Made by a program: the position numbers and the translations under genes. Below, one piece after another: positions 8,781 through 62,227 of a DNA stretch of 64,000 nt; position 1 is the first letter of the stretch; every line of letters starts with the position of its first letter. Source of the DNA: Tsukamurella sp. PLM1 (lineage in GTDB: Bacteria > Actinomycetota > Actinomycetes > Mycobacteriales > Mycobacteriaceae); NCBI RefSeq assembly GCF_023168325.1, contig NZ_AP025688.1, positions 3,286,001-3,350,000 of the forward strand, given 5' to 3'. Under the pieces are notes generated by a model. That model saw only the letters and a program-made list of their open reading frames with translations, had not been told where the DNA came from and ran no database searches.

Positions 8781-11522
<2,742 letters not shown>

Positions 11523-45787: not shown

Positions 45788-47442
45788 ATGACGAGTGCCT
45801 CCACCACCGACGGCGCGGCCGGCGCCGGCAACACCGCTGACGCCGAGCCCAGCATCCACACCACCGCCGGCAAGCTGGCCGCCTTTCGCGCGAAGGACGC
45901 CGAGGCCATGGCCCCGATGGGGCAGGCCGCGATCGACAAGGTGCACGAGAAGGGCCGGCTCACGGCTCGCGAGCGCGTGCTCGCACTGCTCGACGAGGGC
46001 TCCTTCGTGGAGCTCGACAAGTTGGCGCAGCACCGCTCGACCAACTTCGGCATGGCGGCGCGGCGCCCCGTCGGCGACGGCGTGGTGGCCGGCTACGGCA
46101 CCATCGACGGCCGCGAGGTGTGCGTCTTCAGCCAGGACTCGACCGTCTTCGGCGGCTCGCTCGGCGAGGTCTACGGCGAGAAGATCGTCAAGGTCATGGA
46201 TCTGGCGATGAAGACCGGCCGCCCGCTGGTCGGCATCATCGACGGTGCCGGCGCGCGCATCCAGGAGGGCGTGGTCTCGCTCGCCCTGTACTCCCAGATC
46301 TTCATGCGCAACACGCAGGCCTCGGGCGTCATCCCGCAGATCTCCGTGGTGATGGGCGCGGCCGCCGGCGGCCACGTCTACTCCCCGCGCTGACGGACTT
46401 CGTGGTGATGGTGGACCACGAGAGCCAGATGTTCATCACCGGCCCGGACGTCATCAAGTCCGTCACCGGCGAGGAGGTCTCGAAGGAGGAGCTGGGCGGC
46501 GCCCAGACCCACATGACCAAGTCCGGCACGGCGCACTACGTCGCCTCGGGCGAGCAGGACGCGCTGGACTACGTCCGCGAGCTGCTCACCTACCTGCCGT
46601 CGAACAACCGCGCCGAGGCCCCGCGCTTCGTCCCGACCGACCCGCTCACCGGCTCGATCGAGGACTCGCTCACCGACGAGGACCGCGAGCTCGACACCCT
46701 GATCCCGGACTCGCCGAACCAGCCGTACGACATGCACGAGGTCATCCGCCGCCTGCTCGACGACGACGAGTTCCTCGAGATCCAGCCGCAGCGCGCGATG
46801 AACATCATCGTCGGCTTCGGCCGCATCGACGGCCGCAGCGTGGGCCTGGTGGCCAACCAGCCCACCCAGCTGGCCGGCTGCCTCGACATCGACGCCTCGG
46901 AGAAGGCCGCCCGCTTCGTGCGCTTCTGCGACGCCTTCAACATCCCCATCGTCACGCTGGTCGACGTGCCCGGTTTCCTGCCCGGCACCGGCCAGGAGTA
47001 CGACGGCATCATCCGGCGCGGCGCGAAGCTGCTCTACGCCTACGGCGAGGCCACGGTCCCGAAGATCACCGTGGTCACCCGCAAGGCCTACGGCGGCGCG
47101 TACTGCGTGATGGGCAGCAAGGACATGGGCGCCGACATCAACCTCGCGTGGCCCACGGCCCAGTTCGCCGTGATGGGCGCGTCGGGCGCGGTCGGCTTCG
47201 TGTACCGCAAGGAGCTGGCCGCGGCCGCCGAGAACGGCGAGGACGTGGACGCGCTGCGCCTGAAGCTCCAGCAGGAGTACGAGGACACGCTGGTGAACCC
47301 GTACGTGGCGGCCGAGCGCGGCTACGTCGACGCCGTGGTCCTGCCGTCGCACACGCGTGGCCAGATCGTCACGGCGCTGAACATGCTCGAGCGCAAGGTG
47401 GTCGCCACCCTGCCCCGCAAGCACGGGAACATCCCGCTGTGA
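45788..47442 (+). CDS. accD5: Acyl-CoA carboxylase carboxyltransferase beta subunit AccD5, one frame break
   Basis: [73 protein letters not shown] is followed by the crotonase-like carboxyltransferase halves ([16 protein letters not shown] and [24 protein letters not shown]). The frame breaks in the C-run 46383-46386; one added base joins GHVYSP to [42 protein letters not shown]. About 551 residues, as in mycobacteria. With AccA3 and AccE5 it makes methylmalonyl-CoA and malonyl-CoA for lipid synthesis. Essential in mycobacteria, so the break is most likely an error. Confidence 0.95.
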
Positions 47443-47718: not shown

Positions 47719-48357
47719 GTGCGCCTCGTGCTCGCGTCGGCCTCCCCGGCGCGGCTGTCGGTGCTGCGCGCGGCCGGCACCTCCCCGCTGGTATCGGTTT
47801 CGCAGGTCGATGAGGACGCGGTCCTCGCCGCCCTGGGTCCGGGAGCCACGCATGAGGATTCGGTCACCGAGCTGGCCCGGGCGAAGGCCCGGGACGTCGT
47901 CTCCCGCATCGTGTCCGACGGTGCCGTCCCCGGCCGCGCCGTCGTGATCGGCTGCGACTCGATGCTGTCCATCGACGGCGAGCTCGTCGGCAAGCCGCAC
48001 ACCCCCGACGTCGCGGCGGCGCGCTGGCGCGCGATGCGCGGGCGCACGGGCCGCCTCCTGACCGGTCACTGCGCGGTCCTCCTCGACGACGGCGCCGTGG
48101 CCGGCGAGGCGGTCGGGACCGGAGCGACGACGCTGCGGTTCGGCGCACCGTCGGACGCGGAGATCGAGGCGTACGTCGCGACCGGGGAACCGCTCCAGGT
48201 GGCCGGCGCGTTCACCCTGGACGGGCTCGGCGGTTGGTTCATCGAGGGGATCGACGGCGATCCCAGCTCGGTCATCGGGATCTCCCTCCCGCTCACGCGC
48301 GACCTTCTGACGAGCCTGGGCGTCGACGTGATCGCGCTCTGGACCGCCGGCGGGTGA
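47719..48357 (+). CDS. maf: Maf-like nucleoside triphosphate pyrophosphatase
   Basis: 212 residues from GTG (VRLVLASASPARLSVLRAAG). Maf signatures: ASASPAR, SVSQVDEDA, ELARAKARDV, VIGCDSMLSIDGELVGKP and GEPLQVAGAFTLDGLGGWFIEGIDGDPSSVIGISLP. Family members hydrolyse modified or canonical NTPs. It ends the accD5-accE5-maf run. In M. tuberculosis sseA follows directly; here the acyltransferase cluster is inserted. Confidence 0.92.
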   Translation: MRLVLASASPARLSVLRAAGTSPLVSVSQVDEDAVLAALGPGATHEDSVTELARAKARDVVSRIVSDGAVPGRAVVIGCDSMLSIDGELVGKPHTPDVAAARWRAMRGRTGRLLTGHCAVLLDDGAVAGEAVGTGATTLRFGAPSDAEIEAYVATGEPLQVAGAFTLDGLGGWFIEGIDGDPSSVIGISLPLTRDLLTSLGVDVIALWTAGG

Positions 48358-48622: not shown

Positions 48623-49555
48623 ATGACCACGCCGATCCGCCCGTTCGCCGCCCCGGGGGCGCCGGTACCGCCCTCCGCGATCCGCGGGGCGGACGGATGC
48701 TCGTTCGCCCTGCACGGCCGGGTCGACGTCACCGCGCTCCGCGCGGCGTACGCGGCCCTGCTGGAGGAGTACCCCGCCTTCGCCGCCCGGATGATCGCGG
48801 AGCGCGATCGATTCCGGTTCGCCCCTGGCGATCCGGCGGTCGCCGCGGCCATCGGCTTCCGCGATGCGGCGGCACCGTGGGGCGGTTTCACCCAGGCGCC
48901 CCCGGAGTTCGTCGGCTCCGAGCAGCTCTCGGCCCTGTCGCTCACCGGGATCGGCGACGAGAGCCGCCTCACTCTGTGGATCGGCCGTGTCGCGGCCGCC
49001 CCCGTCGGCGTAATCGCTCCGGCGGCGCGGCTGTTCGAGTTCTACGCCGCACTGGCGGGCGGCGCCCGGCCGCTCGTGCACCGCCCGACGGGCGCACGGA
49101 CCTTCGGTCTCCCCACCGAGCCGCAGCGCCTGGCCGCAGCCGCCGGGCGGGAGCCGCGGGAGCGCGGACGCACGCGCGCCGACGATGCCCGCCGCGTGCG
49201 CTTCGATGCGGCGGAAACCGCCGGACTGATCGATTGCGCTCGGGCACGGGCGATCCCGCTCATCGACCTGATCGACGAGCTGATCGGCCGTGCCGACGCG
49301 CCGGCCGGCCGGATCGACGACCTGGGCACCGTCCCCGTCCCGGCGGTTCCCGCGGGGATCGCGGTACTCGACTTCCATTCGCAGCGGAGCGATCCCGCGC
49401 AGCACGCGGTCTCGTACGTGCTCTCCGTCTTCGCCGGCCGGCTGTCGGTGGAACTGCGCGGCCGCCCCGAGACGCCCGGCGGCCCGCTGGATCCGATCCT
49501 GCAGCGGGTCGTGCAGGAGGCCCGGCACCTGCTCACCGTGGGCGCGGCCGCCTGA
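48623..49555 (+). CDS. Condensation/PapA-fold protein without catalytic motif
   Basis: About 310 residues (MTTPIRPFAAPGAPVPPSAIRGADGCSFALHGRVDVTALRAAYAALLEEYPAFAARMIAERDRFRF). The N-terminal pattern of a condensation-type acyltransferase is present (ALHGRVDVTALRAAYAALLEEYPAFAARM), but the region where HxxxDG should stand reads RVAAAPVGVIAPAARLFEFYAALAGG, with no His or Asp. It is also about 150 residues shorter than its neighbours, with an abbreviated C-terminal half (VLDFHSQRSDPAQHAVSYVLSVFAGRLSVELRG). First gene of the cluster, 39 bp before an intact PapA-like gene. It may be a non-catalytic partner or a decayed copy. Confidence 0.7.
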   Translation: MTTPIRPFAAPGAPVPPSAIRGADGCSFALHGRVDVTALRAAYAALLEEYPAFAARMIAERDRFRFAPGDPAVAAAIGFRDAAAPWGGFTQAPPEFVGSEQLSALSLTGIGDESRLTLWIGRVAAAPVGVIAPAARLFEFYAALAGGARPLVHRPTGARTFGLPTEPQRLAAAAGREPRERGRTRADDARRVRFDAAETAGLIDCARARAIPLIDLIDELIGRADAPAGRIDDLGTVPVPAVPAGIAVLDFHSQRSDPAQHAVSYVLSVFAGRLSVELRGRPETPGGPLDPILQRVVQEARHLLTVGAAA

Positions 49556-49594
49556 TCCGACGCACCATCACCCACCACATCGAGGAGGAGCACC

Positions 49595-51034
49595 GTGGAG
49601 TACACCGAACTGGCCGACTACCCGCTCACGACCGGCCACGTCACCGAGTGGATCCCCGTGGTCGTCGATCCGGACACCGGATGGCGCGTAGACCACCGGC
49701 CGCCGAGCCACAATCAGGCCGATCACGTGCGGCGCGCAGCGCTCCACAGCAGCGCTGTCGTGCGGCCCGGCGAGTGGATCGGCGGGGTGTGGCAGATCGC
49801 CGAGAACCTGGACCCCGACGTGCTGCGCCGCGCCCTCAACCGCTGGTTCGCCCGCCACGAGGCCTTCCGCAGCCTGATCTCCCGCACGGACGACGGCACC
49901 CTGGTACGTACCACGACGCCGCCCGAGTCGATCGACTTCACCGCGCAGCCGGTGGGCGAGCTGCACACCTCGCTGAGGGTGTACCAGCACCTCAAGAACT
50001 ACTTCGACGCCACCATCACGCCGTCCCGGTGGCCGCACTGCGTCCTCGCCACCGTCGACGACCCGGGGCGGCCCGGATTCACCGTCGTCTTCGGCGCGGA
50101 CCACTCGGTGATGGACGCCTACACCCAGGTCCTCGCGATCAGCGAGCTCACGTCCCTCTACCGCGCCGAGCTCGCGGGCCGTCCGGCGGAGCTGCCGCCG
50201 TCCGGCAGCTTCCTCGACTTCTGCTCGCTGGAGCGGGAGCGGTTCGAGCACATCGACTTCGAGCACCCGGCGGTCCGGACGTGGCTCGATTACCTCGCGG
50301 CCGACGACGGGGACTCGCCCCGCTTCGGGTTGCCGCTCACCGAGCACCCGGACCGTCCGAACCTCCGGGTGTTCCAGTCCAGCCTCTCGCTTCAGCTGCT
50401 CGACGCCGAGCGCACCGCCGCGTTCGACGCGGCGTGCAAGGCCGCCGGCGGCAAGGCCGGCAACGGGGTGGTCGGCGCCTTCGCGCGTGCCGAGGCCGCG
50501 CTGACCGGGCGCGAGCACGTGCGTTTCGTCATGCCGATGCACACCCGCTCGGAGGAGCGATGGGCCACGTCTGCCGGCTGGTTCGTCGGCCTGATGCCCG
50601 TGGACGTCGCGCTGCCCGCCACCTCCGCGCTCAGCGAGCTCCTCGGGTCGGTCGCGGACGCGCTGCGCCGTCATCGCGACGTGGTGCCGATCCCCTACCC
50701 GCACCTGTCGTCGATCATCGAGAACCGCACGGGCCGCGGCCTTCCGGCGCCGCGCTACGTGCTCAGCTACGTCGACGTGCGGTACGTACCGGGCGCCGAC
50801 GCGTGGGCCGAGCAGAACGCCGCGGTACTGCGCTCGGAGTGCACTGCGGGCGACGAACTGTACATCTGGATCAGTCGCTCGCACACGGGCCTGTTCTTCT
50901 CCGCCCGCTTCCCCTCGAACCCCGTCGCCTCGGCGAACGTCTTCCGCCTCATCGCCGCGCTGCGCGAGAAGCTCGCCGAGGTGATCGACGACACGAGCGA
51001 CGTCGCCGCGGCACTGTCCGGCCACGCCGTCTGA
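49595..51034 (+). CDS. PapA-like acyltransferase, cluster member 1
   Basis: 479 residues, preceded by GAGGAG. The condensation fold starts ADYPLTTGHVTEWIPVV, followed by LDPDVLRRALNRWFARHEAFRSLI. The catalytic motif is GADHSVMDAYTQVLAISELTSLY: His 170, Asp 174 and Tyr 189, the HX3DX14Y of mycobacterial PapA proteins (Gly after Asp is Ala). C-terminal half: FVMPMHTRSEERWATSAGWFVGLMPVDVAL and YVLSYVDVRYVPGAD. PapA enzymes move acyl chains from CoA or carrier proteins to trehalose or phthiocerol hydroxyls; the substrate here is unknown. The next gene starts 13 bp on. Confidence 0.85.
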   Translation: MEYTELADYPLTTGHVTEWIPVVVDPDTGWRVDHRPPSHNQADHVRRAALHSSAVVRPGEWIGGVWQIAENLDPDVLRRALNRWFARHEAFRSLISRTDDGTLVRTTTPPESIDFTAQPVGELHTSLRVYQHLKNYFDATITPSRWPHCVLATVDDPGRPGFTVVFGADHSVMDAYTQVLAISELTSLYRAELAGRPAELPPSGSFLDFCSLERERFEHIDFEHPAVRTWLDYLAADDGDSPRFGLPLTEHPDRPNLRVFQSSLSLQLLDAERTAAFDAACKAAGGKAGNGVVGAFARAEAALTGREHVRFVMPMHTRSEERWATSAGWFVGLMPVDVALPATSALSELLGSVADALRRHRDVVPIPYPHLSSIIENRTGRGLPAPRYVLSYVDVRYVPGADAWAEQNAAVLRSECTAGDELYIWISRSHTGLFFSARFPSNPVASANVFRLIAALREKLAEVIDDTSDVAAALSGHAV

Positions 51035-51047
51035 CCCGGGAGGATCC

Positions 51048-52475
51048 ATGCGCGTCACCACCATCGACGGCCTGCGCACTGCTCCAGGTCGGTACCTGGA
51101 GTTCCCGGTGCTGCCCGCGGCCGCCGCGCTCCCCAGCAGCATCCCGCCGTGCTTCAACCAGGAGTCGCATCTGCGCGCCGCGGACGCGGGCGGCGGGGCC
51201 CCCGGCACGTGGCTGTGCGGGGTCTTCGACGTCCCCGGCCCCGTCGACGAGGACGCATTACGGGACGCCTTCCAGCGGCTCGTCGACGGGCACGCCACCC
51301 TGCGCTCCGAGTTCTCCGTGTCCGACGACGACGCGCGCACCGTCCGGCGCGCGGTGTACCTGGAGGGCGGTATCCACGTGGGCCGTCCGGTGACCGCCCC
51401 CGGCTCCGGCAGCGAGGACGACGAGGACGTGGCCGGGCTGCTGCGCGACCGGCTGGACGCGCACTGCAGGCCGCTGCGCTTCCCCAATTACGTCCTCGCC
51501 GCGATCAGCCGTCCCGACACCTCGACGATCGTCTGCGGCTTCGACCACGTGCACGTCGACGCCCTGTCACTGGCGATCGCGATCGACGAGGTCGCGGCGG
51601 CGTACGCCGGCGGCCCGCACGCCCCGCGTACCGTCGGCGCCGGCGGGGCCGGCGGGGCCGGGCACCTGGACTACTGCCGGGAGGAGGCCGACGCCGCGCA
51701 GGTGGACCCCCACGATCCGCGGCTGGCGGAGTGGGTCGAGTTCCTCGCCGACGCCGGCGGCCACGCGCCGGAGTTCCCCCTCGACCTGGGCGTACCCATC
51801 GGCGAGACCGCGCCGCAGTACAGCGACGAGGTTCGGCTGCTCGACGCCGCCGAGGCCGACGACTTCTCCGCCGCTGCGGCCCGGTCCGGAGGCACCACGT
51901 ACGCGGGCCTGTTGACGGCGCTCGCGCTCGCCACGCACGCCGCCGGCGGATCCGATCTGCTGCCGCTCACGTTCCCGGCCCACACCCGCCACGACGAGCG
52001 GTACCGCCGCGCGCTGGGCTGGTTCGTCACCAGCGCCCCGATCACGGTCTCGGTACACGACGCCGGCCGGCCGGCCGACCCCCGCACGATCTTCGACCGG
52101 ACGGTGGCGGACACCGCCCGCGAGCTCCGCCACGCGCTCGAGCTGGCCGAGGTCCCGCTCCGTCAGGTGATCGCCGCGACCGCGGGCGGGTACCGGCCGC
52201 GGCGCCAGGACGTGTTCATGGCGTCGTACCTGGACTACCGGCGGATCGCGCCCGCCGCCAACGCCTTCGGCTCGAACCGGACGCACGTCTCGAACGTCAC
52301 GCGGTGCGACGACGTCCAGCTGTGGTTCTCCCGCACGGACGACGGCATCGCCGTGCGGACCCGGCACCCCGACACCCCGCAGGCGCATCGCACGATGCGC
52401 ACCGTCCTGCGCGGCCTGCGCGCCGTCCTCGCCGGCGTTGCGACCGCCTCCGACCGGAGTGAGTGGGCCGCGTGA
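51048..52475 (+). CDS. PapA-like acyltransferase, cluster member 2
   Basis: 475 residues, with GGGAGGATCC before the ATG. Motif CGFDHVHVDALSLAIAIDEVAAAY: His 167, Asp 171, Tyr 186, again HX3DX14Y. N-terminal LCGVFDVPGPVDEDALRDAFQRLVDGHATLRSEF and C-terminal LTFPAHTRHDERYRRALGWFVTSAPITVSV and VFMASYLDYRRIAP correspond to the same elements in member 1. A Gly-rich loop (GAGGAGGAGH, about residues 197-206) is specific to this copy. Its TGA overlaps the GTG of the SGNH hydrolase (GTGA), implying coupled translation. Confidence 0.85.
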   Translation: MRVTTIDGLRTAPGRYLEFPVLPAAAALPSSIPPCFNQESHLRAADAGGGAPGTWLCGVFDVPGPVDEDALRDAFQRLVDGHATLRSEFSVSDDDARTVRRAVYLEGGIHVGRPVTAPGSGSEDDEDVAGLLRDRLDAHCRPLRFPNYVLAAISRPDTSTIVCGFDHVHVDALSLAIAIDEVAAAYAGGPHAPRTVGAGGAGGAGHLDYCREEADAAQVDPHDPRLAEWVEFLADAGGHAPEFPLDLGVPIGETAPQYSDEVRLLDAAEADDFSAAAARSGGTTYAGLLTALALATHAAGGSDLLPLTFPAHTRHDERYRRALGWFVTSAPITVSVHDAGRPADPRTIFDRTVADTARELRHALELAEVPLRQVIAATAGGYRPRRQDVFMASYLDYRRIAPAANAFGSNRTHVSNVTRCDDVQLWFSRTDDGIAVRTRHPDTPQAHRTMRTVLRGLRAVLAGVATASDRSEWAA

Positions 52476-53290
52476 CCGTCCCCGCCCGGGCGCCGGGCCG
52501 CTGGGCCGAGTACGTCGCGCTCGGCGACTCGCGGGCGGCGGCGCCGACGCGGATCAGCCTGATCCGCCGCGCCGACGGCCGCAGCGGCCACGGCTATCCG
52601 CACGAGCTCGCCGCGCTCCTGCGCCCGCTCCGATTCGAGGACCGCTCCAGCGTCGGCGCGACCACCGAGCACCTGTTCCGGCGCGGCCAGGTGCGGTACC
52701 AGGGCCTGCGCCGGGTGGTCCTCGCACCGCAGGGCGCGGCGCTGAACGCCGGCACCGACCTGGTCACGATCTCGATCGGCGGCAACGACATCCGCTGGCA
52801 CGCACTGATCCGCGGCGCGTTCGCGCGGCGCCCGGGCGCGGCGGGTCTCGGCTCCGGCCCCGGGAGCGCCCGCCGGATCGACGCCGCGCTCGCCGGGCTG
52901 GGGGTGCGCCTGACCGTCGCCCTCGCCGAGGTCCGCGGGCGCGCCCCGGCCGCGACGGTGCTCCTGGTCGGCCACGGCGGCTACTACCGCCGCCCCGGCG
53001 TACCGCACAGCGCCGCACCGCGTTCGGAACTCTCGCTGCGGGCGGCCGCGGAGTTCTTCGACGCCCTCGACGCCGTGTACCTGGCGGCCTGCGACCGGAC
53101 GGGCGTGCGGTTCGTCCCGGTCCTCGACATCGCGCGCGGGCACGACGGTGCCGCTCGGCCGGCGGAGCGGTGGTTCGAGGGGAACACCTCGTTCTCCCGC
53201 ACCCCGGCGCGTCATCCCACCGCCCTCGGCAGCGCCGCTCTCGCGGCGCACCTGGCCACGACGCTCACGCGTGCGATGGTGCGGCCATGA
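52472..53290 (+). CDS. SGNH-fold hydrolase of the acyltransferase cluster
   Basis: About 272 residues from GTG 52472. Block I EYVALGDSRAAAP (Ser of GDS), block III TISIGGNDIRWH (Asn), and near the end ARHPTALGSAALAAHLA, where His of HPxxxG is the likely catalytic base; the usual Asp two residues before it is Ala. Resembles the GDSL/SGNH esterases of actinobacteria but has no signal peptide. It sits between a PapA-like gene and the exporter with ATGA/GTGA overlaps at both ends, so a trimming or transesterification role on the same lipid is inferred. Confidence 0.82.
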   Translation: MTVPARAPGRWAEYVALGDSRAAAPTRISLIRRADGRSGHGYPHELAALLRPLRFEDRSSVGATTEHLFRRGQVRYQGLRRVVLAPQGAALNAGTDLVTISIGGNDIRWHALIRGAFARRPGAAGLGSGPGSARRIDAALAGLGVRLTVALAEVRGRAPAATVLLVGHGGYYRRPGVPHSAAPRSELSLRAAAEFFDALDAVYLAACDRTGVRFVPVLDIARGHDGAARPAERWFEGNTSFSRTPARHPTALGSAALAAHLATTLTRAMVRP

Positions 53291-54765
53291 CCGCGGCCGT
53301 GTCCCGGGACGACGCCCGGATCACCGACGGTGCCGCGGCGGCCCTGTTGGGCGTGGGTCTGCTGGTGCTGTTCATGGCCACCGTGGACGTCACCATCGCG
53401 AACATCGCCCTGCCGTCGATCCAGCGCGACCTCGGGCTCACCCCGGGCGGCGCCGTCTGGATCGCCGAGGCGTACGCCCTGAGCTTCGCGGCGTGCCTCA
53501 TCCCGGGCGGCGCGCTGGGCGATCGCGTGGGCCCGCGCGCCGCGATGCTGACCGGGATCTCCGTGTTCACGCTCGCCTCGGTACTGGTCGCGGCCAGCTC
53601 CACGCTGTCGGTCCTGTTGGCGGGCAGGGTCTTCCAGGGCGCGTGCGCCGCGATGATCGTTCCGCAGGTGACGGCGATGGTCAAACAGATCCTGCCCCTG
53701 TCCTGGCGGACGCGCGCACTCTCCGCGGTGAGCGCCACCTCCGTGGCGGCCGTCCTGCTCGGCCCCCTGGTCGGCGGCGGGCTCCTGTCGATCGACGCGT
53801 GGGGCCTCGGCTGGCGGGCCGTCTTCTTCGTGAACCTGCCCGTGGGTGCGCTGGCGATACTGGTGCTTTCGTCCGCGCCGTTCCCCGCCCGACCCCGGTC
53901 GGGCGAGAAGTCCGATCCCCTGGACTGGATGGGACTCGCGCTGCTGGTGATCGCGATCACCGCCGCACTGTCGGCGTTCTCCGGCCAGGCGCTCCCCACG
54001 ACGGTCGTGCTGCTCGGCGTCCTCGGCGCGGCGTTCGCCGGATTCCTCGCCCGGCAGCGTCACCTTCTCCACCGCGCGTCGGCGCTGCGCCCCATCGTGG
54101 ACCCGGATCTGTTCTCCGGCCCGAACTTCCGCTGGGGCGTGATCATCCAGTTGTTCGGGCAGGCCGCGATCGGCGGCTTCTACCTGTGCCTGACGCTCTA
54201 CCTCCAGGACGGTCTCGACTGCCCCGCTCCGCGCGGGAGCCCTGTTGGTCCCCGCCGGGTGCGGCGCGCTCGGCGGGATCGCCCTCGGGATGGTGCTGGC
54301 CGCCGTTCCGGCACGACTGCTCATCATCAGCGGCGCCTCGGCCACGGCGGCGGGGTTCACCGCGATGTTCGCGGGCCTGGTCGCCGGCGTCCCGGCGCCT
54401 CGCTCCTGGTGATCACCTCGACGCTGGCGGCCGCCGGACTCGGCCTGTGCGCCGCGCCCGCGCTCGGCGTGGTGCTCACCGACATCCCCACCGCCCGAGC
54501 CGCCACGGCGACGGCGGTGTTCGCGGTGTGCCAGCAGACCGGTTCCGCCGTCGGCACGGGCGCGCTGGGGACCCTGTACGCGCAGCTGACCGACGGCGGC
54601 GCCGCGCGGACCGCGTTCTGCGCCACGGTCCTGCTGTGCGCGATTCTCACCGGGGCGTGCGCGGCCTTCGCGTTCCGGCTCCGGCCCGGCGCCGGCACCG
54701 TCGAACCCGGTGACGGCGCGGCCCCGACGACTGAAGGAGACTTGCATGCCCGTCCTGCGCGATGA
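53287..54765 (+). CDS. MFS exporter (DHA2/EmrB type), local frame breaks
   Basis: ATG overlaps the hydrolase stop. VGLLVLFMATVDVTIANIALPSIQRDLGLTPGGAVWIAEAYALSFAACLIPGGALGDRVGPRAAML is the DHA2 signature with the D-x-T motif in helix 1 and GxLGDRxG loop 2-3. Between 54216 and 54395 the frame is wrong. Missing bases at 54216, 54222-54225 and 54394-54395 restore LQDGLGLPPLRAGALLVPAGCGALGGIALGMVLAAVPARLLIISG before the original frame resumes at SLLVITSTLAAAGL. About 490 residues, 14 helices expected. Likely exports the cluster product. The 3' end overlaps the next gene by 20 bp. Confidence 0.88.
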   Translation: MTAAVSRDDARITDGAAAALLGVGLLVLFMATVDVTIANIALPSIQRDLGLTPGGAVWIAEAYALSFAACLIPGGALGDRVGPRAAMLTGISVFTLASVLVAASSTLSVLLAGRVFQGACAAMIVPQVTAMVKQILPLSWRTRALSAVSATSVAAVLLGPLVGGGLLSIDAWGLGWRAVFFVNLPVGALAILVLSSAPFPARPRSGEKSDPLDWMGLALLVIAITAALSAFSGQALPTTVVLLGVLGAAFAGFLARQRHLLHRASALRPIVDPDLFSGPNFRWGVIIQLFGQAAIGGFYLCLTLYLQDGLDCPAPRGSPVGPRRVRRARRDRPRDGAGRRSGTTAHHQRRLGHGGGVHRDVRGPGRRRPGASLLVITSTLAAAGLGLCAAPALGVVLTDIPTARAATATAVFAVCQQTGSAVGTGALGTLYAQLTDGGAARTAFCATVLLCAILTGACAAFAFRLRPGAGTVEPGDGAAPTTEGDLHARPAR

Positions 54766-56080
54766 GAACCGTGCCAACCGCGTCACCGACGACGACCGGA
54801 CGATCGAGCTCGCCGGCGTGGTGCTCCGCGGGCACCTGATCTCCCAGGCCGTCTTCGAGTACGCCACCGGGAACGAGCCCACGATCGCGGACCTGCGCCG
54901 CACCGCCGGCCACCTCGCCCGCGGGCCGCTGAACCGCACGCTGCGCCGCACCCCGGTCCCGGGCGCGCGGAGCTCGGCGGCCCGGCGCCCCGACGGTCCC
55001 CGTCCACCTGCGCGACCAGCCGCTGGCGCCGGAGGCGACCACCGCGTGGCTGCAGGAGCAACGCGAGCGGACCGGCGGGGCCCGGGGCGTGTCTGCATCT
55101 CCCGGGCTCGGCGCACCGACGGGCGGACGCTGGTCTCGGTGCAGTACCCGCACACCGCGGCGGACGGCGGGGCGATGTACGCCGCGCTGCTCGCCGCATC
55201 GCGCGGAACGACGGGCCCGCGCACGCCGGACGACGCCGCGCCGCGGCCGCGGCTCGCCCACGACCTGGTGGACGCCGGCCGCCAGCTCCGCCGCCTCCTC
55301 CGGACCGTGCGCGAGCACGACGGCGGGCACCCGCCGACGCCGCCCGTCGAGCGCCCCGGCCGCGCCGACGTCCTGCCGCACACGGGCGGGCCCGCGCCGC
55401 TGATCGCGGCGTTCTCCACCCCGGCGGCGGCGTGGCGCGCGGCGGCGCAGGAGCGCTCCGCCAGCGGGAACACGCTGCTCGTGGCGTTCATGTCGGACCT
55501 GCTGTTGAACACCGCCCGCTACGCCGGGCTGAGTACCGTCCCCACCACCATCCCGATCGACGTGCGCGTGGACGGCTCCCGCGATGCGAACAACACCGCC
55601 TCGGCCACGGTCGCCGTCCCGCGGGACGCGGTCGGAGCGGACCTCGCCGGTTTGCACGCCACGATCAAGGCGGCCCTCGTCGCGAGCGGCAACCGGCCGG
55701 GCGCCGAGCGGCGGCCCGCGCCGCTCGAGGTGGCGGCGCACTTCATCCCGGACGCGCTCGTGGACCGGCTCGCCGGCCCCCACCCGATGTCGCTGCTCAC
55801 CTGCTCCAACATGGGCACCGTCGCCCCCGACTTCCGCACCCTCTTCGGCCCCGCCGCGGACCGGATCCTCATGCTCGCCGCGCCGACCCCGGTGACCGAG
55901 GAGCGGTTGCTGCGCGGCGGCGGCGGACTCGCGGCGTGGCTCGACGGGGCCGGCGACACGGTGACGCTGAGCGTCGTGTGCCTGGACCCGCTGTGCTTCG
56001 CCGACGGTGCCGACGCGCAGCGGCACATCGCCGCGACCGCCGCGCGCTTCGGGATCGTCCCCGAGTTCTGGAACATCTGA
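54746..56080 (+). CDS. PapA-like acyltransferase, cluster member 3, local frame breaks
   Basis: ATG 54746 follows AAGGAG. MPVLRDENRANRVTDDDRTIELAGVVLRGHLISQAVFEYATGNEPTIADLRRTAGHLARGPLNRTLRR. Between 54958 and 55087 three short runs (54958-54960, 54988-54991, 55084-55087) each lack one base. Restoring them gives TVPVHLRDQPLAPEATTAWLQEQRERTGGARGRVCISRARRTDGRTLVSVQYPHTAADGGAMYAALL, with HTAADG as catalytic HxxxDG. The C-terminal half TIPIDVRVDGSRDANNTASATVAV and TCSNMGTVAPDFRTLFG is closer to WS/DGAT-like or other condensation families than members 1, 2, 4 and 5. About 446 residues. Ends 9 bp before member 4. Confidence 0.8.
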   Translation: MPVLRDENRANRVTDDDRTIELAGVVLRGHLISQAVFEYATGNEPTIADLRRTAGHLARGPLNRTLRRTPVPGARSSAARRPDGPRPPARPAAGAGGDHRVAAGATRADRRGPGRVCISRARRTDGRTLVSVQYPHTAADGGAMYAALLAASRGTTGPRTPDDAAPRPRLAHDLVDAGRQLRRLLRTVREHDGGHPPTPPVERPGRADVLPHTGGPAPLIAAFSTPAAAWRAAAQERSASGNTLLVAFMSDLLLNTARYAGLSTVPTTIPIDVRVDGSRDANNTASATVAVPRDAVGADLAGLHATIKAALVASGNRPGAERRPAPLEVAAHFIPDALVDRLAGPHPMSLLTCSNMGTVAPDFRTLFGPAADRILMLAAPTPVTEERLLRGGGGLAAWLDGAGDTVTLSVVCLDPLCFADGADAQRHIAATAARFGIVPEFWNI

Positions 56081-56089
56081 GGAGGAACG

Positions 56090-57454
56090 ATGATCGGTGC
56101 AGCACTGGACGATTGGGAGTTCCCACAGGGGACGATGATCGACTTCGCCGCGACGGTCGGGCCGGGCGAGCAGGACTGCGGCACCGGCCCCACCTTCCTG
56201 CAGGCGGAGCACCTCGCGGCCGCCGAGAAGACCGAGCGGCACACGGCGTACGTCGGGTTCGCCGCCCGGGTGCGCGGCGCGCTGGACGTCCCGGCCCTCA
56301 CCGCGGCGGTCACGGATTTCGTCCGCGGCCACGAGGCCCTGCGCACCCGGTTCGCGCGCTCCGGCGCCGGGTGGACGCGCATCGTGACGCCCGCCGAGGC
56401 CGTCACCCTGACCGCGGTGGACGCCGGCCCGGCGCCCGGCGGCGCCGAACTCACCGCCCGGCTGCGCCGGCGGTTCTCGACGGAGGCCGCCTCGTCCCGG
56501 GTGCCGAGCGCGGCGATCGGCGCGATCGCCGGCGAGGACTGCTTCGACCTGTATCTCGCGGCCGACCACAGCGCGACCGACGGCGCCTCGCTGCTGCTCG
56601 GGCTGAACGAGATCGTCGTCCGCTACCGCGCGCACCGCGCGGGCACCGTCGGCTCGGCCCCCGTCGCAGCACCGCACTCGGCCTTCGCGCGGGAGGAGGG
56701 CGACCGGACGGCGCGGACCGATCCGAGTGCGCCCGCGCTGGACACGTGGCGCAGCGCCTTCACCGCGTCCGGCGGCGGCATCGAGCGATTGCCGATCGCC
56801 ACGGGACTCGGGCCCGGCGAATCGGCGCCCGTGCGGGCGCTGCACCACCGGCTGCTCGACGCGGACGCGGTGTCCGCCCTCGAGGCCGCGATCGCGCCCG
56901 CACGGCTGTCGGCGGCGCTGTACGCCGCGCTCGCGATCACCGACCACGCCCGCACCGGATCCGACACCTGGATGCGGGTCGTGGTGCAGGACCTGCGGCG
57001 TGAGTTCAGCTCCACCGGTACGGATCTGAGCCTGACGCAGGGCTGGATCGTGGGCTTCGCGCCGCTCCTGTTGGAGGGACTCACGGGCAAACGACCCGAG
57101 CAACTCGTCGCCGAAGCGGGCGAGGCGGTCCGCGCCGCCCGCCGGGCCGGCGCGGTCCCCACCGCCGCGGCACTGGGCGCGCTGTTCGCGGAGCGGCTGA
57201 TCGACCCGGCGGCGGTCGCCCGCCCGCCGCTGATCTCGTACCTCGACGCGCGCCCGCTCTCCGCGGCTCTCCCCGAGGTGGGGGCGGCGATCATGTTCCC
57301 CGGCGACGGGAACACGGCGAACGTCTCGCTGTGGCTCACGCGAGAGGCGGACGGCCTCGAGATCGGCACGCAGTGCCCGGGAACGGACGTCGCAGTCACG
57401 GGGTTCGCCGAGTACGCGCGCGATCTCAGCGCGACGTTGGCATCCTTGGTGTGA
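56090..57454 (+). CDS. PapA-like acyltransferase, cluster member 4
   Basis: 454 residues, GAGGAG before the [28 protein letters not shown]... places His 160, Asp 164 and Tyr 179 in HX3DX14Y spacing, with the full HxxxDG. N-terminal [30 protein letters not shown] and C-terminal [34 protein letters not shown] and [16 protein letters not shown] match the family layout. Last gene of the first block; sseA begins 23 bp later behind its own -10 box. Confidence 0.85.
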
Positions 57455-57464
57455 GCACACACGC

Positions 57465-57470
57465 TAGGCT
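57465..57470 (+). promoter_or_regulatory. Leaderless -10 box of sseA
   Basis: TAGGCT, then seven bases, then the GTG start at 57478 with no Shine-Dalgarno. It suggests sseA keeps its own promoter despite the upstream insertion. Confidence 0.5.
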
Positions 57471-57477
57471 GGCGGAC

Positions 57478-58370
57478 GTGGCTATCGAGACCGATCCGAG
57501 CGCGGAACTGCAGGACTACGCACACCCCGAGCGCCTCGTCACCGCGGACTGGCTGAGCGGGCACCTCGGTGTCCCCGGCCTCAAGGTGATCGAGTCCGAC
57601 GAGGACGTGCTCCTCTACGACATCGGGCACATCCCGACCGCGCAGAAGGTGGATTGGCACCTGCACCTCAACGACCCGGTGACGCGCGACTACATCACCG
57701 GCGAGCAGTTCGCGGAGCTCATGCGCGCCAAGGGGATCAGCCGCGACGACACCGTGGTGATCTACGGCGACAAGTCGAACTGGTGGGCCGCCTACGCATT
57801 GTGGGTGTTCACCCTCTTCGGGCACCCTGACGTTCGCCTCCTCGACGGCGGCCGCGACAAGTGGATCAGCGACGCCCGCGACGTCTCGCTGGAGCAGCCG
57901 GACTACCCCCGCAGCGACTACCCCGTCGTCGAACGCGACGACACGGTGATCCGGGCGTTCGCGGATCAGGTCCGCGCCGACATCGGCGCACGTGCCCTGG
58001 TCGACGTGCGCTCGCCGCAGGAGTACACCGGCGAGCGCACGCACATGCCCGACTACCCGGAGGAGGGCGCCCTGCGCGGCGGCCACATCCCCACCGCGGT
58101 GTCGATCCCGTGGGCGAAGGCGGCCCGCGCCGACGGCCGGTTCCTCCCGCACGCCGAACTCACGCAGGTGTACGCGGACCTCGATCCCGCGGCCCCCGTC
58201 ACCGCGTACTGCCGGATCGGCGAGCGGTCGAGCCACACGTGGTTCGTGCTCACCCACCTGCTCGGTTTCGCGGACGTCAAGAACTACGACGGTTCCTGGA
58301 CGGAGTGGGGAACACAGTGCGCGCGCCGATCGCGCGGGGCGAGGAGCCCGGCGCCGCGCCGGGCGCATGA
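57478..58370 (+). CDS. sseA: Thiosulfate sulfurtransferase SseA (two rhodanese domains), frame break near the end
   Basis: [60 protein letters not shown] starts the inactive first rhodanese domain. The second holds the active-site Cys in [25 protein letters not shown]-run at 58307-58310 breaks the frame; one added base gives [22 protein letters not shown] and a stop at 58370. About 297 residues. Moves sulfane sulfur to thiophilic acceptors. Partnered with the SufE-like gene that overlaps its stop (ATGA). Confidence 0.92.
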
Positions 58371-58802
58371 GCGCCGGGACGCCGGGGCCCGGCTCGACGC
58401 CCGCTCCGCTGCAGGAGATCATCGACGATTTCGCCGCGCTGGGCGAGCAGGACCGGCTCGAACTGCTGCTCGAGTTCTCTCGCGAGTTGCCCGACCTCCC
58501 CGCACCTGACGGATGCGGCGATGGAACCGGTCCCGGAGTGCCAGTCGCCGCTGTTCCTCGACGTGGACGCCGCCGATCGCGCCGCGGTCCGCCTGTACTT
58601 CAGCGCACCGCCCGAGGCGCCGACCACCCGCGGCTTCGCGTCGATCCTCGCGCAGGGCCTCGACGGGCAGTCCGCCGACGCCATCGCGGCGGTCCCGGAC
58701 GACTTCCACCACGCGCTGGGGCTGGACACCGTGGTCAGCCCGCTGCGGCTGCGCGGCATGTCGGCGATGCTGGCGCGCATCAAGCGCCGGCTCGCCGCGT
58801 AG
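58367..58802 (+). CDS. SufE-family protein (Rv3284-like), one frame break
   Basis: [45 protein letters not shown], then a C-run at 58498-58501. The reading resumes as [104 protein letters not shown] holds the conserved sulfur-accepting Cys. Two missing C (giving LPPHL) or one surplus C would explain the break. About 145 residues. Accepts persulfide sulfur for Fe-S assembly, probably from the adjacent rhodanese or a cysteine desulfurase. Confidence 0.88.
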
Positions 58803-58823
58803 GACCGCCCGCCGGGGCCGGCC

Positions 58824-60287
58824 ATGCAATTCACCGAGATCGACGCCTACCCGCTGCGCCCGGGTGAGCTGCGCAACTGGTTCCCCACCACGGGCCCCGC
58901 GGCGCGCTGGCGCGACGACCCCCGCAACACCTCCCACGTGCACGAGGCGCACCTGCGGGGCGCGCAGGCGATCCTCCGGCGCCGGCACATCGACGGTGGC
59001 CGCGAATCCTGGCTGGGCCTCGGGATCGAGTTCGACGAGCCGCTGTCCATCCCCGGGCTGCGCACCGCGCTGCGGGCGTGGATCGACCGGCACGAGGTCC
59101 TGCGCACCCACGTCTTCCTGGACGAGCAGGACGCGCCGCGCCGCCGGAGCGCACAGCCGGCCACCGTCGACCTGAGGGTCAAGACGGTCGGCACCTACCG
59201 CTCCACCGGCCCGCTCGCCGAGCAGCTGCTGGGCGAGTTCGACCGGTCCACGGCCCCGCTGACCTGGCCCGCGTACATGTTCTCGACGGTGGCGCGGGAG
59301 GACTCGTTCACGCTGTTCTTCGCCGCCGACCACTCCCTGCTGGACGGCTACTCGCTGATCCTGAGCCCCTACGAGCTGCGCGAGGCGTACCGCGAGGCGG
59401 TGCACGGCGACCCGGTGCGGCTGATTCCCACCGGCAGCTACGTGGACTACTCGGACACCGACCGCCAGGTCGCCGACCGGGCCGGCGCGGACCACCCGGC
59501 CGTCCGCATGTGGGACGAGTACCTCAGCGAGACCGGGTTCCGGCCCGACCCGTTCCCCATGCCGCTGCTGCCGCTCAGCGCGAAGGTGCTCGCCGACGAG
59601 ACCCGGGCGGCGCTCAGCCGCGACCCCGACGGGGTGCCCCGGCTGCCGCAGGGCGCGCTCAACTTCCACCTCCTCGACGACGAGCGGGCGAACAACTTCG
59701 CGCGGGTGTGCTCCGAGTCCGGTGCGTCGCTGGTCACTGGGGTCCTGGCGTGCATGGCGAAGATCAACACCGACCTGGGCTTCGGGCCGGTGTTCCGGTG
59801 CGCCGTGACGCGGCACACGCGCGACGCGGAGCAGTGGATCGCCGCGCTGGGCTGGTTCGTCGGCATCGCCCCGTTCCGGTTGGACACGACGGGGTCGCCG
59901 AGCTTCGGCGAGCTCGCCCAACGCGCGCAGGCCGAGTGGAAGCGCTCGAAGGTGGGCAGCACGCTGCCGTACCTGCGGATCGCGCAGGTCCTGGCCGCGG
60001 AGCCCGGGCACTCGCAGGCGCCCCCGCCGAGATTCGTGGTCTCGTTCATGGACACCCGGTCCGCGCCCGGCTCCGACGTCAACGACGCGGGCGGCGCCGG
60101 CGCGCTGCGGTCGCGGGACTACTCGATCGAGGACGTGTACCTCTGGATGTTGCGCACCCCGTCCGGGCTGCACGTCGCGGCGCGGTTTCCGGGCTTCGAC
60201 ACCGCACGCCGGAGTGTGACGCTGTACCTCGGCGCGCTACGTTCGATGGTGACCGAAATCGGCGATGCAACAGTTACTCGGGGGTAA
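58824..60287 (+). CDS. PapA-like acyltransferase, cluster member 5
   Basis: 487 residues, [23 protein letters not shown], closely parallel to member 1 (MEYTELADYPLTTGHVTEWIPVV). [29 protein letters not shown]; catalytic [25 protein letters not shown] with His 170, Asp 174, Tyr 189 (HX3DX14Y, full HxxxDG). C-terminal [30 protein letters not shown] and [15 protein letters not shown]. It is separated from members 1-4 by sseA and the SufE-like gene and lies 131 bp before accA3. Probably a duplicate of member 1. Confidence 0.87.
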
Positions 60288-60338: not shown

Positions 60339-60418
60339 CCACGCGAGTGTGTGATCCCCCGGTGGGACGACGAAGGCGGCGCGCACCCCGCAGCGCCGAG
60401 ACGAACGAGGAGATGTCA

Positions 60419-62227
60419 GTGGCAGCCCACGCGGAGAAGAAGATCGAGAAGGTGCTCATCGCCAACCGCGGCGAGATCGCGGTGCGCGTCATTCGCGCCG
60501 CACGCGATGCGGGCCTGACCAGCGTCGCCGTGTACGCCGAGCCCGACGCCGAGGCCAAGTTCGTGCGGCTCGCCGACGAGGCCTTCGCCCTGGGCGGCCA
60601 GACCTCCGCCGAGTCGTACCTCGTCTTCGACAAGATCCTGGACGCGGCGCGCAAGTCGGGTGCCGACGCGATCCACCCCGGCTACGGCTTCCTGTCCGAG
60701 AACGCCGACTTCGCGCAGGCCGTCATCGACGCGGGCCTGACGTGGATCGGCCCGTCCCCCGAGTCGATCCGCGACCTGGGCGACAAGGTGACCGCGCGGC
60801 ACATCGCCGAGCGCGCCGAGGCCCCCATGGCGCCCGGCACGAAGGATCCCGTCAAGGACGCCGACGAGGTGGTCGCGTTCGCGAAGGAGTACGGCGTGCC
60901 CGTCGCCATCAAGGCGGCGTTCGGCGGCGGCGGCCGCGGCATGAAGGTCGCGTACACCGTCGAGGAGATCCCCGAGCTGTTCGAGTCGGCCACCCGTGAG
61001 GCCGTCGCCGCCTTCGGCCGCGGCGAGTGCTTCGTTGAGCGCTACCTGGACAAGGCCCGCCACGTCGAGGCGCAGGTCATCGCCGACCAGCACGGCAACG
61101 TCGTGGTCGCCGGCACGCGCGACTGCTCGCTGCAGCGCCGCTTCCAGAAGCTGGTCGAGGAGGCGCCCGCGCCGTTCCTCACCGACGAGCAGCGCACCTC
61201 CATCCACGAGTCGGCCAAGCGGATCTGCCGCGAGGCGGGCTACTACGGCGCCGGCACCGTCGAGTTCCTGGTCGCGGCCGACGGCCTCGTCAGCTTCCTC
61301 GAGGTCAACACCCGCCTGCAGGTCGAGCACCCGGTCACCGAGGAGACCGCCGGCATCGACCTGGTCCGTCAGCAGTTCCGCATCGCCGAGGGCAAGGAGC
61401 TGACGATCACGGAGGATCCTGCTCCGCGCGGCCACAGCTTCGAGTTCCGGATCAACGGCGAGGACGCCGGCCGCGGCTTCCTGCCCGCGCCCGGCCCGAT
61501 CAGCGTCTACCGCGAGCCCACCGGCCCCGGCGTGCGCGTCGACTCCGGCGTCGACCAGGGCGACGTCATCGGCGGCCAGTTCGACTCGATGCTCGCCAAG
61601 CTCATCGTGACCGGCGCGACCCGCCAGGAGGCGCTGGAGCGCTCCCGGCGCGCGCTGGCCGAGTTCGAGGTCGAGGGCCTCGCGACGGTCATCCCGTTCC
61701 ACCGCCACATCGTCTCCAACCCGGCCTTCGTGGGCGACGAGAACGGCTTCGAGGTCTACACCAAGTGGATCGAGACCGATTGGGAGAACCCGATCGAGCC
61801 CTACACCGGTGGCCAGGCCATCGAGGAGGACGACTCCCTGCCCCGCCAGAACGTGGTCGTGGTCGTCGACGGCCGCCGCGTCGAGGTCTCCCTGCCGGGC
61901 GAGCTCTCGCTCGGCGGTGGCGGCGCGGCCGGCGGCGCAGGCGTCATCCGCCGCAAGCCCAAGCCCCGCACCCGCGACCGCGGCGCCGGCGTCGCGGCCA
62001 CGGGCGATTCCGTGACCGCGCCCATGCAGGGCACCGTCGTCAAGGTGGCCGTCGAGGACGGCCAGCAGGTCAGCGCCGGCGACCTGGTCGTGGTGCTCGA
62101 GGCCATGAAGATGGAGAACCCGGTCGCCGCGCACAAGGACGGCATCGTGACCGGCCTGGCCGTCGAGCCCGGCACCGCCGTCACCCAGGGCACCGTCCTG
62201 CTCGAGATCAAGTCGGCCGACGAGTGA
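60419..62227 (+). CDS. accA3: Acyl-CoA carboxylase biotin-carboxylase/biotin-carrier subunit AccA3
   Basis: About 602 residues from GTG 60419, chosen because GAGGAG lies six bases upstream (ATG 60413 overlaps that site). [36 protein letters not shown]-grasp [34 protein letters not shown] and [16 protein letters not shown] define the biotin carboxylase. The C-terminal carrier domain has the biotin Lys in [11 protein letters not shown]. Shared alpha subunit for several AccD partners, including AccD5. Biotinylated by BirA encoded at 44921. Confidence 0.97.

Follow-up and report, generated by a model that had tools for sequence, protein, structure and literature searches.

A conserved acyltransferase and an exchangeable gene cassette between maf and accA3 of Tsukamurella: a putative glycolipid locus

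The mycobacterial acyltransferases PapA1, PapA2, and PapA3 belong to pathways that work with polyketide synthases, FAAL/FadD enzymes, and MmpL pumps; PapA2 is a trehalose-2-sulfate acyltransferase. Biosurfactants of Rhodococcus, Gordonia, and Tsukamurella include trehalose and oligosaccharide lipids, whose genes are poorly known, as PMC8396431 also says of those for succinoyl trehalolipids. According to the gene table of that paper, Rhodococcus sp. I2R, a strain that makes succinic saccharide esters, carries on its contig 9 four papA genes that are candidates for these esters. For Tsukamurella, PMC4365757 describes trehalose diesters that combine a long with a short chain, adds tri- and tetrasaccharide esters for T. 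tyrosinosolvens, and lists T. spumae DSM 44113 as a trehalose diester producer. On the export side, Rv1410 (P55) is a DHA2-type lipid exporter of the major facilitator superfamily (MFS), for which PMC10576003 gives a triacylglyceride substrate and the lipoprotein LprG as partner. A papA3 gene beside a glycosyltransferase in a nonribosomal peptide synthetase (NRPS) cluster (PMC13206832) and scattered Gordonia acyltransferases (PMC9009618) added nothing here. No title or abstract opening was found to describe the Tsukamurella cluster treated below, with subscription papers outside the scope.

This cluster lies in a stretch of 64,000 nucleotides of Tsukamurella sp. PLM1 (NZ_AP025688.1, positions 3,286,001 to 3,350,000), hereafter the window, whose own numbering is used throughout. 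In its list of open reading frames (ORFs), maf is followed by AT0, AT1, AT2, an SGNH hydrolase gene, an MFS gene, AT3, AT4, sseA, sufE, and AT5, and then by accA3, all on the + strand; AT0 to AT5 are acyltransferases or homologues of them. It is moderately likely that AT5, as the conserved core enzyme, forms a glycolipid locus together with an exchangeable cassette, in which the cassette would acylate a trehalose-type sugar or oligosaccharide from acyl-CoA and the MFS protein would export the product.

Cassette exchange within Tsukamurella

AT5 is found between sufE and accA3 in 16 of 16 Tsukamurella genomes and matches those of nine named Tsukamurella genomes at 86–92%. The interval between maf and sseA varies in the same 16 genomes: a complete cassette B occupies it in 11 and a partial one in G201 (the last two genes only, at a contig edge), no gene was called there in T. 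spumae (L044) and G178, and cassette A is present in the window genome and G148. Cassette B, exemplified by L039 1408-8599, consists of three PapA5-type acyltransferases, a weak WS/DGAT gene (below the cut-off), a small protein without a Pfam match, and a glycosyltransferase. A glycosyltransferase 36–37% like that of cassette B also occurs at another place in the window genome (L138, G000 C1:862001-882000, at 9858-11138), near apparent acyl ligase and acyl carrier protein genes, as judged by eye.

In an rpoB tree, the window genome and G148 stand together at 89/98, which is below the strict mark, and are nested in a fully supported group in which each of the other seven members has cassette B. 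The sister of AT0 is the cassette B gene cB2, with a support of 99 (SH-like approximate likelihood ratio test, SH-aLRT), in the tree that also placed AT3, whose groupings call for caution because long branches meet. The PapA_C match of AT0 is confined to the final part of the domain. Neither AT0 nor the corresponding G148 protein has HxxxD where cB2 has HAATD, and both are missing a stretch of the C-terminal half. Pairwise dN/dS against G148 is highest for AT0 (0.46), with 0.14–0.33 for the other seven genes. The simplest reading of these data is that cassette A took the place of cassette B once and left AT0 behind, and AT0 is regarded as a presumably dead leftover of the earlier cassette. A functional role of AT0 alongside AT1 and AT2 is less likely given its sister position to cB2, yet the gene is kept in G148 and still mildly constrained.

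The initial annotation had treated the six acyltransferase-type members as the set of one pathway. A single six-enzyme unit is rejected: AT5 is the core in all 16 genomes, the remainder is replaceable, and AT0 appears to come from another cassette. A GC signature of recent acquisition is not clear, with 72–78% in 1-kb steps from 49 to 57 kb and 69–75% around. The closest copies of the SGNH protein among 201 genomes are 74% (G148) and next 42% identical, and no close copy that could mark a donor was found outside Tsukamurella in these genomes.

There is about an even chance that the region from accD5/maf to accA3 serves mycolic-acid bacteria as a switching locus for surface glycolipids, with a logic like that of O-antigen and capsule loci. 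In a fixed frame—accD5, maf, sseA, sufE, AT5, and accA3—whole cassettes of acyltransferases, sugar transferases, and an exporter would be exchanged between lineages, and cassette A would have displaced cassette B with AT0 as a gene fossil.

Recurrence in other genera

The linkage of AT1 with AT2 and that of the MFS gene was counted from coordinates in match tables, with the weakest matches lying beyond those listed. Among the matches listed, AT2-type genes occupy 77 places in 61 of 201 family genomes. A match to the AT1 query, which may be of AT1- or AT5-type, lies within 5 kb of 73 of these 77 places (59 genomes, 13 genus codes), and the remaining four places have no AT1 match on their contig, again among the matches listed. 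The order sseA-sufE-AT5-accA3 is present in 29 of 30 loci from a search with AT5 (22 of these 29 loci in other genera), the exception being L038. A cluster unique to this strain is rejected, as the AT1/AT2 linkage recurs across genera. The genes are hence co-conserved in relatives, and the proteins do not fall into unrelated families—the two points on which a common pathway had been made to depend.

Outside the genus, the surroundings were followed in 25 genomes, in a total of 29 regions chosen for holding AT1-, AT2-, or AT5-like genes; genes in these regions were called by a codon-usage script, which missed some, and one region was checked with Pfam. Both AT1- and AT2-like genes are found in 22 of the regions, a glycosyltransferase like that of cassette B in 16, a family-2 glycosyltransferase in 11, a pair of ABC ATPase and permease in 13, and an MFS gene in five. 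A PapA2-like gene is next upstream of accA3 in all 19 regions that contain both sseA and accA3. An AT1-AT4-AT2 module occurs in other genera and often adjoins sseA-sufE-AT5-accA3, accompanied either by an ABC exporter and glycosyltransferases or by an MFS gene; the order in the window differs (AT1-AT2-SGNH-MFS-AT3-AT4). Four MFS-type regions were read and feature accD5, MFS, AT1-like, AT2, sseA, AT5, and accA3 in this order; the calls include sufE for three of the regions and maf for two. The locus, hence, has an ABC/glycosyltransferase form and an MFS form, and the window combines a fuller acyltransferase set with an MFS gene. In L092 678-11668 (genus g6), the module lies between accD5 and maf and not between maf and sseA, which shows that the site of insertion is not constant.

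Acyltransferase families and gene order

The HX3DX14Y motif is exact in AT1, AT2, AT4, and AT5, whereas AT3 features HTAAD without the Tyr and AT0 has no motif; inspection of the motifs thus bears out the five HxxxD enzymes and one motif-less homologue first described. AT1, AT2, and AT5 match the condensation fold (PF00668) above the cut-off, AT4 just under it, and AT3 and AT0 not at all. PF16911 (PapA_C) is matched by AT0 only, with no match of AT1 to AT5 at E 0.01. The closest solved structure is PapA2 for AT1 (1e-36), AT2 (2e-22), and AT5 (9.2e-30), and PapA2 comes second for AT4, in agreement with the assignment as PapA-type enzymes. In a tree of 62 proteins, the AT1 and AT2 clades have an SH-aLRT of 100 each, the AT4 clade reaches 87, and AT5 proteins form two clades at 99; the AT1, AT2, and AT4 clades include members from other genera. 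The acyltransferase trees come from short searches and have SH-aLRT as their only support, and proteins below 390 or above 620 aa were excluded, so that fragments, for instance of L083, L087, L091, and L097, are left out.

AT3 is divergent: searched singly, it matches no Pfam family and has no meaningful relative among solved structures. With a profile built from ten AT3-type proteins, 8s6l, a phthiocerol/phthiodiolone dimycocerosyl transferase chain, is matched at 5.5e-4, while two NRPS proteins follow with 2.6e-3 and 3.6e-3. Against the PapA5-type set the profile reaches 82% probability across 118 columns that lie outside the motif; against the PapA2-type set it reaches 31% over 253 columns that align HxxxD. 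AT3 groups with genes adjoining AT1-AT4-AT2 in L083, L084, and L096 (SH-aLRT 95). With moderate support, it is probably a divergent member of the fold.

Table 1. Features of the accD5–accA3 region of the window.
Feature	Position	Strand	Observations
accD5, acyl-CoA carboxylase beta subunit, flanking	45788..47442	+	two frames here; 96–97% to single-frame G148 accD5
maf, left border of variable interval	47719..48357	+	
AT0, motif-less, putative PapA5-type remnant of cassette B gene cB2	48623..49555	+	PapA_C 32.4 bits, cut-off 30
AT1, PapA2-like acyltransferase, HSVMD..Y	49595..51034	+	PF00668 64 bits; PapA2 (6aef) 1e-36
AT2, PapA2-like acyltransferase, HVHVD..Y	51048..52475	+	PF00668 47 bits; PapA2 2e-22
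SGNH/GDSL hydrolase	52472..53290	+	PF13472 57 bits; GDSR and GGND blocks
DHA2-like MFS protein, putative exporter, local out-of-frame stretch	53287..54765	+	PF07690 112.7 bits
AT3, divergent HxxxD acyltransferase, local out-of-frame stretch	54746..56080	+	HTAAD; no Pfam match
AT4, condensation/PapA-like acyltransferase, HSATD..Y	56090..57454	+	PF00668 28.6 bits, cut-off 30.6
sseA (rhodanese), right cassette border	57451..58509	+	PF00581 108.5 bits
sufE, two frames	58394..58802	+	PF02657 80.6 bits on 58521-58802
AT5, core PapA2-like acyltransferase, HSLLD..Y	58824..60287	+	PF00668 62 bits; PapA2 9.2e-30
accA3, acyl-CoA carboxylase alpha subunit, right flank	60413..62227	+	87–99% to other Tsukamurella

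The gaps are 39 bp between AT0 and AT1, 13 bp between AT1 and AT2, and 9 bp between AT3 and AT4, and the pairs AT2/SGNH, SGNH/MFS, and MFS/AT3 overlap. The ORF coordinates thus agree with the genes, single strand, overlaps, and gaps of 9–39 bp that the initial annotation reported; AT4 and AT5, however, are not adjacent, as sseA and sufE, omitted earlier, intervene. The sseA ORF has 352 aa here versus 306 aa in G148, whose protein aligns as far as 58320. Among the ten ORFs scanned (48623-60287), no match to a polyketide synthase, FadD, adenylation domain, or MmpL was found, in accordance with the absence of the first three noted before. Taken together, the earlier observation of the cluster is partly confirmed.

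Proposed product and comparison with known systems

In the proposed mechanism, AT5 would make a core acyl-trehalose, to which AT1 to AT4 would add further acyl groups straight from acyl-CoA, on several hydroxyls of a trehalose-type sugar or oligosaccharide; the SGNH hydrolase may remove or relocate acyl groups, and export of the finished lipid would fall to the DHA2-like MFS protein. From the gene set we infer the CoA donors, the sugar acceptor, the order of the steps, and the roles of the SGNH and MFS proteins. The SGNH protein lacks the Asp three residues ahead of the C-terminal His, as do 11 homologues compared. Because related bacteria carry other cassette versions at the same spot in a row of housekeeping genes, the cluster probably makes and exports a glycolipid whose type can be swapped between species. 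The locus constitutes a testable gene set around the AT5 core, with relatives of AT5 at the same place in other genera; its alternative cassettes predict species differing in lipid type, and it points to a putative MFS pump, not MmpL, for glycolipid export.

Several observations weigh against this glycolipid reading. L044, in which AT5 is present and the cassette absent, comes from T. spumae DSM 44113; since this strain is reported to make the diester (by the listing in PMC4365757), the cassette would be dispensable for trehalose diesters. AT5, or another PapA-like gene elsewhere, may make the diester, and the cassette may decorate this core lipid. The AT1-like genes of the four MFS-type regions are 28–29% identical and lie outside the tree, and none of the 29 regions of other genera holds a counterpart of the SGNH gene. 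The same weighing covers the missing sugar genes, the first match of AT4, the position of the best MFS matches, and the local frame breaks, each of which bears on an alternative treated below. As to further acyltransferases, weak matches to the AT2 query are found outside the locus in 16 of 16 Tsukamurella genomes, and a PapA-like gene outside the locus (L140 7552-8976, HLYTDG..Y), whose match to this query is comparable in strength to those in the 16 genomes, is a candidate AT5 partner for trehalose diesters.

The ten ORFs scanned contain no ABC exporter, glycosyltransferase, or trehalose-synthesis gene, and the best match of AT4 is the condensation domain 4znm (3.9e-10), ahead of PapA2 (2.3e-7). 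In addition, the top NCBIfam matches of AT1, AT2, and AT5 are NRPS-type models, far under their cut-offs. These features would suit an acceptor other than trehalose—glycerol, a polyol, a peptide alcohol, or an envelope polysaccharide—with the likeness to PapA2 reflecting the wide condensation family only. Such an acceptor is unlikely, though, as PapA2 is clearly the top solved match of AT1, AT2, and AT5, and both types of glycosyltransferase recur in the other-genus regions (16 and 11 of 29).

A trehalose-type glycolipid remains the preferred product, and the role of the MFS protein in its export can be judged from its neighbourhood. Of the 15 AT2-bearing genomes of g24 and g10 (g10 being one genome), 14 have a DHA2-like MFS gene at a distance of about 3 kb to an AT2 place, among the matches listed. 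Each of the 15 has 11 to 30 matches, and in 10 of them the copy beside AT2 scores best. Together with the overlaps of SGNH, MFS, and AT3, this argues against a drug or metabolite efflux pump that shares the strand of separate acyltransferases by coincidence. That alternative draws on matches to DHA2 proteins of a general kind only, on a TIGR00711 score of 133.7 bits under the cut-off of 230.2 (for the locally out-of-frame window copy), and on the top MFS matches among 18 genomes, G079 (8.6e-51) and G040 (3.5e-45), which both lie away from AT2, as well as on the five of the 15 genomes in which the MFS gene at the locus is not the best match; all in all, it is very unlikely. The G148 copy matches PF07690 along its full length, and no close MFS relative was found at E 1e-70 in 101 genomes besides the window genome, in a draw without G148. 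DHA2-like MFS genes also occur within about 3 kb of another PapA-like match, outside the accA3 locus, at G040:C3:105801-111706 and G079:C3:197019-199868; these sites are a second pairing of an MFS with a PapA-like gene. The earlier proposal of an MFS exporter in place of MmpL stands as regards the recurring MFS neighbour, and its export function is predicted from the protein family.

MFS and AT3 each have a short out-of-frame stretch compared with their G148 copies, and AT0 lacks its motif and a segment, as would be expected of a decaying cassette with no product in this strain. There is a slim chance of this, as both genes are single-frame throughout in G148, and the dN/dS values given above speak for constraint in the seven genes. 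Furthermore, accD5 and sufE are likewise split between two frames with respect to G148, and the completeness of the genome is 83.88 versus 93–100 in the 15 other Tsukamurella. Because accD5, a housekeeping gene, and sufE are split too and completeness is low, the frame breaks are likely assembly indels rather than real breaks. The initial interpretation of a poly-acylated lipid made from acyl-CoA and exported is, overall, partly supported.

AT1, AT2, AT4, and AT5 share the family and the HX3DX14Y motif with PapA1, PapA2, and PapA3 of the mycobacterial sulfolipid and polyacyltrehalose pathways, as compared with PapA2 only (E 1e-36 to 2.3e-7). In contrast to these pathways, the window features five enzymes and an MFS pump, and the ten ORFs scanned hold no polyketide synthase, FadD/FAAL, or MmpL. 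The putative exporter is a DHA2 MFS protein like Rv1410, which according to PMC10576003 takes lipid out from the inner membrane; the window cluster showed no gene identifiable as that of a lipoprotein. A putative acyl-CoA transferase for succinoyl trehalose lipid, TlsA of Rhodococcus sp. SD-74, is about 30% similar to the papA genes of I2R by the account of PMC8396431. Among the closest described systems is contig 9 of Rhodococcus sp. I2R, where, in the gene table of PMC8396431, three papA genes in a row are separated from a fourth by a gap of about 1.5 kb. This spacing fits AT1-AT4-AT2-[sseA-sufE]-AT5, and sseA and sufE would fit the gap by analogy. One or two PapA enzymes per pathway, first assumed to be the norm, do not hold at this locus: related genera have three or more and I2R, by the same table, four. 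Compared with I2R, which is known here from this table, the window adds AT3, the SGNH hydrolase, and the MFS gene and features another gene order.

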